From an uncultured Spirochaetota bacterium (GTDB taxonomy: Bacteria; Spirochaetota; Brachyspiria; Brachyspirales; Brachyspiraceae), in assembly GCA_944390575.1 (NCBI GenBank), contig CALXQJ010000003.1:1-64000 (forward strand): DNA of 64,000 nt, in the 5' to 3' direction. A model generated the notes under the pieces. That model searched no databases, had not been told where the DNA came from, and saw only the letters and a list, made by a program, of their open reading frames with translations. Shown in pieces: positions 315-10,561 of this stretch. A program made the position numbers and the translations under genes. Numbering within the stretch: position 1 is the first letter of the stretch; every line of letters begins with the position of its first letter.

Positions 315-1505
315 CTAAGTATTAAGAAAATTAGAATATTTTCTATCTATCAAACAACATAATAAATCTGGTGTAATAGAATTTATGTTATCTTTACTAT
401 GAAAATACTCTATATAATGATTATTTCCTTTAAGTATATCATCTTTTAATAAAGGAGGCAATACTATAGATACATTTTTATCTTTTTTATAATATTTAGG
501 ATAATTTAAAAACCTAATATATGCTGATCCATTTGAAATAACTATATTATTATTTGAAGTTGCAATTCCTATATGGGCTCCTCCAGTATCACATGACAAT
601 ACTAATTTTGCTTTACTAGTAATATATGGAACTTCATTTATACTATATTTTCCAAATAATGAAATTATATATTTAGATTGATTAGAAATCTTATAACCTA
701 TTTTCCTATCCTTATAAGGACCCAAAATATAGACAATTAAATTATATTTTATACTTATATAATTAGCAACATAATAAAAATTTTTATAATCCCAATCTTT
801 TAAAATAGATGTAGATGTAGGAAAAATAACAACATATCTTTGGTTAAAATTAAAATCTATATTTTTATATTCTTCATCTAATAAATTAAAGTTAATAGAA
901 TCTATATTTATTTTTTTATTTAAAAGTTTCTCAAAAAACTCTTTATTTCTATCAAGCTCAAACATATCTCCATTAAGATTATCTGAATATATAACTTTAG
1001 TATACATACTTATATCAGAACGCTCCTTCAAATTCATAGCTATTAAACCACCAAAAGTACTTATTTTCTCCTTAGAATGAATCATAGAAATAAGCTTATC
1101 TTTAACAGAAGTTCTTAAAAAATAATGAGATATCAAAATATCATATTCTAAATTGTCAAAAAAATATTTAAACTCTAAATGATCATATTTATCAATATAG
1201 TAAATATATTCATCTATATATTCTTTATCAAAATGTAAAACTAAATCCTTAAATCTATTATTACCAATAAATGTAATTTGATAATCAAAATAATAATCAC
1301 GTATATGAGGTAAAAAATGCCTAAGCATTAAATAATCACCTATACCTGAATCAAAATAAATTGCCAATTTTTTTTTATAAATCTTATCATTTAAATTAAT
1401 AGAAAGAAATTTTATTTTTATTTTTCTCTTAAATGAAATAACTATACCTAAAAATATTATTTTAATATAAAAACCATCTTTTTTAATTGAAAATAATTTA
1501 CTCAT
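315..1505 (-). CDS. Glycosyltransferase family 9 (heptosyltransferase-like)
   Basis: Predicted GT-B enzyme of the ADP-heptose:LPS heptosyltransferase family (396 aa), acting at the inner membrane in LPS/LOS or related glycan assembly. Residues 49-66 (IYFDSGIGDYLMLRHFLP) resemble the GT9 N-terminal GD loop. Residues 225-250 begin the C-terminal nucleotide-sugar domain, and 301-315 contain the conserved CDTGGAHIGIA sugar-nucleotide motif. Residues 4-29 (LFSIKKDGFYIKIIFLG then a basic stretch) are an N-terminal copy of the module found at the ends of most neighbouring enzymes. It follows the ATP-grasp gene by 72 bases. Heptose as donor is an inference from the family only. Confidence 0.8.
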   Translation of the reverse strand: MSKLFSIKKDGFYIKIIFLGIVISFKRKIKIKFLSINLNDKIYKKKLAIYFDSGIGDYLMLRHFLPHIRDYYFDYQITFIGNNRFKDLVLHFDKEYIDEYIYYIDKYDHLEFKYFFDNLEYDILISHYFLRTSVKDKLISMIHSKEKISTFGGLIAMNLKERSDISMYTKVIYSDNLNGDMFELDRNKEFFEKLLNKKINIDSINFNLLDEEYKNIDFNFNQRYVVIFPTSTSILKDWDYKNFYYVANYISIKYNLIVYILGPYKDRKIGYKISNQSKYIISLFGKYSINEVPYITSKAKLVLSCDTGGAHIGIATSNNNIVISNGSAYIRFLNYPKYYKKDKNVSIVLPPLLKDDILKGNNHYIEYFHSKDNINSITPDLLCCLIDRKYSNFLNT

Positions 1506-1577
1506 AAAACAAAAACCTATTATAAGTAATATATATTAACTTGTAATTTATATAATTTTAATATAGTATTTAATAAA

Positions 1578-2804
1578 TTATAATATTCTACTGCTCTGCT
1601 CTGCTCTGCTCTGCTCTGCTCTGCTCTGCTCTGCTCTGCTCTGCTCTGCTCTGCTCTGCTCTGCTCTGCTCTGCTTCTTTTTCATCAAAAATCTAATACC
1701 AAATATATATATAATAAATTTATCTTCTGAATTATAAAAAGAAAAAATATGCTTCCAATTATTTATATCATTTTTTTCTTTTTCTAAATCTAAAAGTATA
1801 CTATCTTTTTCCATCTCTAGTCTACTAAATCTAGTATTTAAATTTTTATTTTCAATCAAAAGTTTTTTATAGTCTGTAACAAGAATATCTAAATTATAAG
1901 ATTGTTCTTGTAAGATAGATTCATAAAAATAATCTTTAGAGTACTCTATATTTTTATTTTTAGGAAGCTCTAATAACTCTCCAAATTTATAATCCCACTC
2001 TATAGGTTCAAATTTCCCCATTCCATTTTGATGAGTAAAAGTTAGCTCTCCTAAAAAAATATTATTATTAATAATATAAAAATCTACTCTAACATTAATA
2101 AAATAAGACGAAATAACAGTAGCTAAAGCTAACATATTATCAAAACAGTGAGGCTTTATTATATCTCCATTATATTTTTTATATGCGGTGCTACCTGCTA
2201 AAAAATCTTGTTTTATCCAGTTACAATCATAAATTACACCTTTATTATTAAAAACTAAATCAACATTTACTTGTATATATTTAGGAACTCCATTAAAACA
2301 AAAAACTTTGTAGTCATATAACTGACCATCTAATTGTTCTATATATTTCTCACAAATAATTTTAGGCTTTATATTTTTATACTGCCACTCAAAACTAGAA
2401 TAATAATTATTATTTTGTATTTTCATCCATTCTTTCAATTGATTAATTGTATCTTTAATATTTAAAATAGATTTATCTTTAACAATAATATTTTGACCAC
2501 TACCCCAATTAACTTTTAGAACAAATTGATTTGGAAGCATATTAAAATCAATATCTTCTGGTCTATCCCAGACACCAATCAAAGGAATTAAATACTCTTC
2601 ACCAATAATATCTTTAATAAATTCTCTAACTAAATACTTATCTGCACATTTAGTCATTAAAGGATCATTATAATAAAGTTTTAACCACTGAATCTTCTCA
2701 TTAAAAGTTTTAGGATTATCTAAATTAAGTTCATAACCAAGTCTTTTTTTAAATTGTTCTTTAATAACATCTTCTTTAAATTTTAAATTTTCTTCTAAAG
2801 TCAT
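1578..2804 (-). CDS. TupA-like ATP-grasp polysaccharide enzyme with phase-variable tail
   Basis: The 408-residue product matches the TupA-like ATP-grasp family found in polysaccharide and teichuronopeptide clusters, where it is thought to ligate amino acids or modify glycans. Family features are [12 protein letters not shown] (34-45), the [11 protein letters not shown] segment (52-62), [11 protein letters not shown] (98-108) and the YKVFCFNG strand (165-172). Residues 315-350 look like a coiled coil; 353-378 carry the shared hydrophobic terminal module (FSFYN...[13 protein letters not shown]). The last 30 residues are a repeating SRAEQ pentapeptide encoded by 17 AGCAG units. Because 5 is not a multiple of 3, unit gain or loss changes the C-terminal end without touching the catalytic domain. 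The exact substrate is unknown. Confidence 0.8.
1591..1675 (-). repeat. Pentanucleotide repeat, 17 copies of AGCAG (CTGCT on plus strand)
   Basis: Eighty-five bases of perfect CTGCT repeats lie inside the 3' end of the ATP-grasp gene. Read on the coding strand as AGCAG they give the pentapeptide SRAEQ every three units. With 17 copies translation ends four codons after the tract (SRIL, stop at 1578-1580). With 16 copies the first codon after the tract becomes TAG. With 18 copies the frame stays open for about 23 residues, ending near 1522. Such short, pure, non-triplet tracts are classic slipped-strand mispairing sites. Confidence 0.97.
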
Positions 2805-9366: not shown

Positions 9367-9370
9367 AAAA

Positions 9371-10561
9371 CTACTTAATAGGTATTTTAATAAATAAAAT
9401 TGTCATATATTTGTCTATAGCATTAATAGAAAATATATTTTTTAGTAAAGAATTAAAGCTAACAATATATGGTTTACTAAAACAATTCTTTGTTGTAAGA
9501 TTTATTCTAATACCCAAAATTTTTATATTAATATAATATTCATATAGTATAATAGAAAAGAAATAAGGTGTCAATTTATCTATCAAATAAGTATATTTTT
9601 TTATATTATCTTTTTCATAATTTATAATATCTATATATCTATCATAATTATTATTTGAAAAGTATTTATTTAATATAGTAGTATATCTTTCATCTCTAAT
9701 CTTAGATTTTAATAAGTTAAATTGTCTAAAATATATTTTATTATAGTAGTTAGAATAAATATTATATACATTCTGAATCTTTAGAAAATCATCTATGTAA
9801 GAACAAGCTTTAGAATTACTTTCACACATATATTCAAATTCTTCTAAAGAAAGCCTATCAGTATTTTTATTACTATCTCCAGAACTAATAAAGTAATAAT
9901 AAAGAGAATCAGATATAGAAATATAATTTTTAGCAAAATAAAATATTATAAAAGATTGAAGCATATCCTCTGCATTAACAAGTCTTATATCTGGAATAAA
10001 AGGTATAATTTTATCTATAATACATTTTTTATATGCCTTACCCCACATATTATGCCCAATTTTCTCTTCTAAAAACTCTAAAAATAAATAATCTCTATTT
10101 ATTAAAGATCTTGTAGAAGAAGCATATCTTTCTACTTTTTTTATTTCTCTAATATATTCCTTTTTATCATTAAATAATGACGTATCAACAAAAGCTTGTA
10201 TAGAAAAATGAACTATATCAACTTTTTTATCACAAACTACTTTATAAATGGTATCACACATATTAAAATCAACATAATCATCACTATCAACAGTTATAAT
10301 ATACTCACCTAAAGCTTTTAAATATCCAGTTTTTCTAGCTACTAATAAACCTTTATTTTCATTATGCTTAATATAAATAATTCTATTATCATTATAAGAA
10401 TCTATAATACTATCACATTCTATAGTATTTGGAGAACAATCATTAACTACTATAATTTCTATATTCCTAAATGTTTGATTAACTACACTATCTAAACAAC
10501 GCTTTAAATATTTTTCTGTATTATAAACAGGAATTATAATAGAAAAAAAAGGCATATACAT
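9371..10561 (-). CDS. Glycosyltransferase family 2, first gene of the operon
   Basis: The most divergent GT2 member here (396 aa). It begins MYMPFFSIIIPVYNTEKYL and has VVNDCSPNT, the VDSDDYVDF metal site (about 91-99) and an acceptor-side MWGKAYKKC segment. Its tail seems to hold two copies of the shared module: FFSIILYEYYINIKILG then IRINL, and the extreme C-terminus IFSINAIDKYMTILFIKIPIK in two pieces of under twenty residues each. A TAGGTTGA ribosome site lies just upstream; ATG at 10561 and the ATG two codons in are both possible. A TTGACA-16-TATACT promoter precedes it, so it heads the operon. Confidence 0.85.
   Translation of the reverse strand: MYMPFFSIIIPVYNTEKYLKRCLDSVVNQTFRNIEIIVVNDCSPNTIECDSIIDSYNDNRIIYIKHNENKGLLVARKTGYLKALGEYIITVDSDDYVDFNMCDTIYKVVCDKKVDIVHFSIQAFVDTSLFNDKKEYIREIKKVERYASSTRSLINRDYLFLEFLEEKIGHNMWGKAYKKCIIDKIIPFIPDIRLVNAEDMLQSFIIFYFAKNYISISDSLYYYFISSGDSNKNTDRLSLEEFEYMCESNSKACSYIDDFLKIQNVYNIYSNYYNKIYFRQFNLLKSKIRDERYTTILNKYFSNNNYDRYIDIINYEKDNIKKYTYLIDKLTPYFFSIILYEYYINIKILGIRINLTTKNCFSKPYIVSFNSLLKNIFSINAIDKYMTILFIKIPIK

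Follow-up and report, generated by a model that had tools for sequence, protein, structure and literature searches.

An operon on the minus strand of a 64,000-nucleotide stretch of DNA from an uncultured Spirochaetota bacterium of the family Brachyspiraceae (contig CALXQJ010000003.1, positions 1 to 64,000; hereafter the window) encodes nine proteins, and eight of these carry the same module of ~25 residues. The module exists as a unit that recurs, moves between proteins, between positions within them and between phyla, and is kept at the protein level. We infer both a membrane-binding property and a purpose for it, namely that, as a peripheral "beta-anchor", it fixes glycan enzymes to the cytoplasmic membrane at its inner leaflet, a reading to which we assign a probability of slightly above one half.

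Module copies in the window and across genomes

Gene identities in the operon (positions 315–10561) were assigned with Pfam and comprise a GT9-type glycosyltransferase, a TupA-like ATP-grasp protein, a DDD glycosyltransferase, five GT2 glycosyltransferases and an NAD-dependent epimerase. Nine copies of the module could be aligned, and the epimerase, which gives no profile match, is the one protein of the operon that lacks it (Table 1), as a preliminary description of this DNA made from its letters had proposed. Both the alignment of the copies and the profile searches bear out the N-terminal copies claimed there for the GT9 and DDD proteins and the C-terminal copies claimed for four GT2 proteins, and two copies are indeed found in the operon's first gene, the second of them weak by itself (leave-out E 0.07). 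The copy assigned to the C-terminus of the ATP-grasp protein is present but does not form its extreme end, since a repeat-encoded tail of 32 residues comes after it, and the pattern originally written down is sound as a consensus although its literal form matches no copy exactly.

Table 1 Positions of the module copies and of the module-less epimerase in the window
Feature	Gene	Position	Strand	Basis
Module, N-terminal, GT9-type glycosyltransferase	315-1505 (PF01075)	1425..1499	-	Residues 3-27; own-genome profile E 1.7e-10
Module near C-terminus, TupA-like ATP-grasp	1578-2804	1677..1754	-	Residues 351-376; PF14305 covers residues 36-278 only
Module, N-terminal, DDD glycosyltransferase	2818-3846	3766..3843	-	Residues 2-27; profile matches; AlphaFold2
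Module, C-terminal, GT2	3866-5017	3875..3946	-	Profile matches
Module, C-terminal, GT2	5020-6147	5029..5106	-	Profile matches; AlphaFold2
NAD-dependent epimerase, mid-operon, without module		6134..7048	-	PF01370 E 8.7e-58
Module, C-terminal, GT2	7061-8197	7079..7156	-	Profile matches
Module, C-terminal, GT2	8194-9366	8215..8292	-	Profile matches
Module, second tandem copy, shortened, extreme C-terminus of GT2	9371-10561	9374..9442	-	Weak alone
Module, first tandem copy, operon's first gene (GT2)	9371-10561	9497..9568	-	Profile matches; tandem recurs in relatives

Leave-one-out profiles were searched against the 70 open reading frames of the window, and a 21-fold larger set of shuffled or reversed sequences served as decoys. 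Every held-out protein was recovered, at E values from 7.6e-14 to 1.8e-3 (2.4e-4 for the GT9 copy). All window copies except those of the first gene scored 13–44 bits, compared with 7–11 bits for the strongest decoys; within this range the N-terminal copies and that of TupA lay at 13–17 bits, where the best decoy reached 8–11 bits. The two copies of the first gene scored 10.3 and 5.3 bits, the former barely above its own decoys. A six-frame profile search of the window's own 2.0-Mb genome returned 12 matches in 11 proteins, all of which are glycan enzymes. Nine of these matches are the window copies, and the other three lie in one GT2 each on contigs 8 and 15 and in a GT8 on contig 11; a broader profile added the GT8 adjoining the latter.

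Beyond this genome, the profile matches 24 of 26 genomes of the genus Brachyspira, and in a sample of Spirochaetota it matches 23 of 26 Brachyspira genomes, to which two sister genera add a genome each. When 85k species were scanned for an exact degenerate DNA pattern, 44 loci were obtained, among which the coherent protein matches outside Brachyspira came from one Spirochaetia metagenome-assembled genome and several Candidatus Gastranaerophilales genomes. The latter belong to another phylum, in which the profile matches 56 of the 192 genomes in the order of one such genome and 59 of 194 in a phylum-level sample, nearly all of them 1.7–2.3 Mb in size. Moreover, a profile built from the matches at Gastranaerophilales loci, with a few from the one Spirochaetia genome, finds, at the same residues, all window carriers except the tandem-copy GT2, hence seven of eight, with E values of 2.3e-4 or better for six (GT9 at 1.4e-5) and of 0.018 for one. 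The profile searches, which did not extend to Campylobacterota, Fusobacteriota and other low-GC gut groups, gave no match in 398 Bacillota or 398 Pseudomonadota genomes. The matches are not random, and chance occurrence in unrelated proteins, which the preliminary description had named as a refutation, is not what the searches show.

Several candidates were set aside. The DNA-pattern loci outside Brachyspira and Gastranaerophilales are mostly short, incoherent frames, and six such genomes gave no profile match when searched. Lone matches in other spirochaete families (L123 and L124, in frames of 59 and 38 residues) are provisionally taken as chance, and the single match among 296 Bacteroidota genomes (L227, a 110-residue frame with no convincing gene) is taken as chance too.

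Simple repeats occur in two of the carrier genes of this genome. Seventeen perfect tandem copies of the 5-base unit CTGCT lie at window positions 1591–1675, just past the module and within the 3' end of the TupA gene, and encode (SRAEQ)n. Because each unit gained or lost shifts the frame, phase variation probably affects the tail of the TupA protein and spares the module; one alternative frame past the array would run for 22 codons more, to position 1520, near the GT9 start. The second array, in which the 7-base unit TTGACTG is repeated perfectly ~18 times, lies at the end of contig 15 (L097, 5909–6032) in the 5' end of the module-bearing GT2 gene, runs off the contig, and is likely an on/off phase-variation switch. 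On the downstream side of the operon, window positions 1–292 hold an additional GT2 gene truncated by the contig start, and the operon therefore extends past the assembled contig.

Carriers and portability of the module

Pfam assignments for 77 non-redundant Brachyspira carriers are dominated by GT2 (36), followed by TupA (7), GT4 (7), GT8 (6) and pyruvyltransferases with F420-hydrogenase-like parts (6), and the remaining types include methyltransferases, WavE and RgpF. A second set of 59 carriers, nearly all from Gastranaerophilales, adds FkbM, TylF, WbsX, GT99 and PGA_cap, and CDP-glycerol glycerophosphotransferase occurs among the N-terminal carriers. The groups that these enzymes add to glycans are sugars, pyruvate, methyl or glycerol-phosphate. 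Their module-less neighbours are rich in epimerases and other nucleotide-sugar enzymes, including 9 epimerases and nucleotidyltransferases. The window epimerase has twenty homologues, itself counted, among these neighbours and none among the carriers, nor does a module match fall on any of the eight PF01370 matches in the window's own genome.

The position of the module varies widely. Among 115 complete, distinct Brachyspira carriers it is N-terminal in 10, ends up no more than 35 residues from the C-terminus in 88 and is elsewhere in 17, and 23 Brachyspira proteins hold two or more copies. For 54 of the second set the corresponding counts are 13 N-terminal, 26 C-terminal and 15 elsewhere, mostly between two catalytic domains, as exemplified by a GT8 (6–260)–module (303–326)–GT2 (385–551) protein and by a GT4 followed by two modules and a TupA domain (507–746). 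When the modules were masked, 35 pairs of related catalytic domains were found to carry the module on opposite sides; in one of these the window TupA, with the module on its C-side, is 50% identical to a Gastranaerophilales TupA with the module on its N-side. The module has therefore been acquired or shifted separately from the catalytic domain. The portable element envisaged in the preliminary description is thus strongly supported by its presence in two phyla and more than ten enzyme families, by end-switching within one catalytic family, and by tandem and inter-domain copies.

The conservation of the module is a property of the protein. At identical residues the window copies agree in codon at a frequency of 0.61, where codon usage by itself would give 0.65. 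With codons saturated and residue classes nearly invariant, it is the protein on which selection acts; the window copies are old at the DNA level and conserved as protein.

Some carriers merit separate description. Relatives of the operon's first GT2, with two modules ~15–20 residues apart, occur in many Brachyspira genomes, sometimes twice or more (L042, L045, L048, L049, L054, L080, L082 and L088), and this two-module family may be the most constant carrier. Brachyspira proteins of ~790–850 residues combine a 4Fe-4S ferredoxin, FrhB/FdhB and a polysaccharide pyruvyltransferase with a module at the end (L041, L050, L051, L062, L079 and L094), and Pfam counts and sequences suggest that they would be an unusual redox plus pyruvylation fusion. 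One Candidatus Gastranaerophilales frame of 1029 residues (L143, 2–3088), the 5' end of which is possibly open, joins a GT2, a DDD glycosyltransferase and a TupA ATP-grasp domain, followed by two tandem modules; the three enzyme types fused there are separate genes in the window operon. A 32.6-kb plasmid of B. hyodysenteriae carries two tandem TupA-like ATP-grasp genes, each with a module (L060, 3130–5689), and PLSDB holds relatives of varying identity on nine such plasmids. TupA relatives carried by plasmids in other genera align to about residue 278–304 only, short of the module. Other glycan genes of the B. hyodysenteriae plasmid have been linked to pathogenic potential (PMC4267127).

Predicted fold of the module

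Column statistics were calculated over 208 copies from both lineages, and the consensus reads xIFSIxN - turn - Y/HKxIxI(L/F)-G-IKIxIKK. Positions 2, 3, 5, 14, 16, 17, 19, 21 and 23 are 97–100% hydrophobic, position 18 is mostly Gly, and columns 20 and 24 are 81–100% Lys/Arg, whereas at column 22 Brachyspira has mostly Thr/Ser/Val/Asn and Gastranaerophilales has Lys. Acidic residues make up 0–1% at columns 14–25 and at most 5% at columns 11–13, and the mean net charge is +2.9 and +5.3 in the two lineages.

AlphaFold2 predicts three strands for the GT2 encoded at 5020–6147 (residues 351–355, 359–364 and 367–372), with a predicted local distance difference test score (pLDDT) of 80–85 that follows a linker at ~57. 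Three strands are likewise predicted at the N-terminus of the DDD enzyme (residues 5–10, 13–18 and 21–26), where pLDDT is 82, 92 and 89 in blocks over residues 1–30 and the rest of the model is poor. The alignments behind both models contained module sequences, and the two predictions therefore do not count as independent. The module is accordingly modelled as a compact three-stranded antiparallel beta-meander, in which one face would be hydrophobic and the other lysine-rich. Columns 19–24 alternate hydrophobic residues with Lys/Arg (20 and 24) and are predicted to be in beta conformation, the pattern of a cationic amphipathic beta-sheet. The hydrophobic moment of strand 3 is 0.92 when calculated as beta compared with 0.41 as alpha; strand 2 alone does not discriminate. 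A terminal amphipathic-helix membrane-targeting sequence, one of the options first put forward for this module, does not fit the three strands predicted at both termini or the higher beta moment of strand 3.

The GT2 model was also aligned with solved GT2 structures. Its catalytic part and following helices are best matched by TarP, TarS and RmlT (PDB 6h4m, 5tze and 8bz6; Z about 26, model residues 3–345), and aligned ranges stop at or before residue 345 in all rows except one, which covers 3–364. In nearly all rows the module (residues 349–375) is therefore placed by the model beyond the part shared with solved GT2 enzymes, and it would probably not be an ordinary piece of that fold, the other outcome that the preliminary description had named as a refutation.

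Sequence families in Pfam, NCBIfam and PDB yielded no match to the module. For single and tandem module sequences NCBIfam gave no match and Pfam gave only a sub-threshold match to FlaA (E 0.048), searches in which such short queries may miss families; the best hit of the short module query among PDB sequences had an E value of 5.4. In the open-access literature, subscription papers and preprints aside, no description of the module or of a shared terminal glycosyltransferase element was found. Short targeting domains are known, and one of predicted beta structure that is common to many unrelated glycan enzymes in two phyla appears to be undescribed.

Candidate functions and implications

In the assembly of O-antigen, lipooligosaccharide (LOS) and capsule, glycans usually hang on a membrane lipid. 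Our preferred hypothesis is that the mini-domain, joined to its enzyme by a helix or linker, would bind the membrane from the cytoplasmic side: its lysines would draw anionic phospholipid head groups, its Ile/Leu/Phe face would sink into the interface, and enzymes working on lipid-linked glycan intermediates would be held at the membrane, an anchor that enzymes making soluble nucleotide sugars would not require. We favour a peripheral membrane anchor because the predicted sheet is amphipathic and cationic, the carriers are transferases and not makers of nucleotide sugars, few of them have another transmembrane segment, and precedents exist in lysine/hydrophobic peptides and in TagA. Membrane or scaffold targeting had been suggested in the preliminary description, and the predicted sheet and the transferase carriers are consistent with it; taken as a whole, the interpretation given there is supported in part.

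These precedents resemble the module only in part. In TagA, of the WecB/TagA/CpsF glycosyltransferases, a C-terminal appendage tethers the enzyme peripherally to the membrane (PMC6493773). This is likewise a short terminal element on a glycan enzyme; however, its model consists of three alpha-helices, it is found in one enzyme family and it completes the active site, whereas the module is predicted to be beta and is found at either end of many unrelated families. With this predicted beta structure and the different families of its carriers, the module does not fit a TagA-type appendage. The terminal membrane-targeting elements of MinD, FtsA and TagB named in the same work are also short, terminal and amphipathic, and bind membrane; they are helices, in contrast to the module, which is predicted to fold as a three-stranded sheet and is found inside proteins and in tandem as well. 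Closer in pattern are the model peptides [KIGAKI]3 and [KL]n, in which Lys alternates with Ile/Leu as in the module and which bind membranes as amphipathic beta-sheets (PMC7378186), but these are designed, free, membrane-disrupting peptides, and the module is a natural domain, conserved and fused to enzymes, whose glycine turn is fixed.

Several observations weigh against a membrane anchor. Carriage is not universal, as roughly 6 of the 19 GT2 proteins in the window's genome, by an inferred count, have the module. The comparison of transmembrane content, in which 5 of 122 carriers and 51 of 214 neighbours have another transmembrane segment, is confounded by the transporters among the neighbours. 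The modelled sheet suggests that its lysines lie opposite the hydrophobic face, an arrangement that would fit membrane binding less directly than a flanking ring. Methyltransferases, ATP-grasp proteins and pyruvyltransferase/FrhB fusions need not work at the membrane, and a module between two catalytic domains is a less obvious fit to an anchor.

The main rival, a serious one that we judge less likely than the anchor, is that the module is a protein–protein docking or self-association tag, such that mini-sheets pair by their hydrophobic faces, or bind one common scaffold or transporter, and a pathway complex forms. An isolated three-stranded sheet with an exposed hydrophobic face would be expected to pair with something, and the tandem copies in 23 Brachyspira proteins, the inter-domain copies and the co-occurrence of many carriers in one operon all agree with docking. 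However, Ile, Leu, Phe and Val interchange freely across the two phyla with only their class conserved, which fits a non-specific partner better than a shaped interface, and the marked avoidance of acidic residues points to a partner that is anionic; a scaffold gene was not identified, and no search aimed at one was made. The third-ranked alternative, to which we give a low probability, is that the module acts as a small cationic substrate-holding domain and binds the acceptor itself, whether the phosphate or diphosphate of a lipid-linked glycan, lipid A/LOS or a polymer. The conserved cationic face and the action of the carriers on glycan acceptors speak for such a role, but a conserved aromatic or polar binding-site signature is lacking and the hydrophobic face is the most constant feature.

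The remaining two explanations fare worse. Conserved coding ends might provide a DNA-level recombination seam that lets glycosyltransferase genes swap, without function in the protein; carriers do sit in surface-polysaccharide loci and on plasmids, but the saturation of codons between the window copies beside nearly invariant residue classes makes this explanation very improbable. Weakest, and in our estimate close to negligible, is a chance likeness of AT-rich (Ile/Lys/Asn-rich) termini or an ordinary part of each glycosyltransferase fold: Ile/Lys-rich tails are common in such low-GC genomes, and the operon has ~20–22% GC, but shuffled and reversed decoys fall far under nearly all window copies, none of the Bacillota or Pseudomonadota genomes searched matches, solved GT2 structures with one exception align to model residue ~345 and not to the module, and the same unit is predicted at both N- and C-termini.

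Returning to the membrane anchor, we tentatively extend it, at odds somewhat below even, to a common address label: a freely mobile beta-sheet mini-domain that gut spirochaetes and non-photosynthetic gut cyanobacteria would each have attached, terminally or between domains, to whole sets of unrelated glycan enzymes, gathering a membrane-bound assembly line, with the label exchanged across phyla. In surface-glycan pathways, lipid-linked intermediates pass between peripheral enzymes, and to our knowledge it is largely unknown how soluble-looking glycan enzymes reach the membrane and one another. A single small tag on many unrelated enzymes makes this question of enzyme localisation directly testable. 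Such a tag predicts pathway membership, gives a handle on localisation, and supplies artificial glycan pathways with an anchor that is genetically simple. If true, this would be an unusually clear example of a very short domain spreading over enzyme families and between gut phyla.

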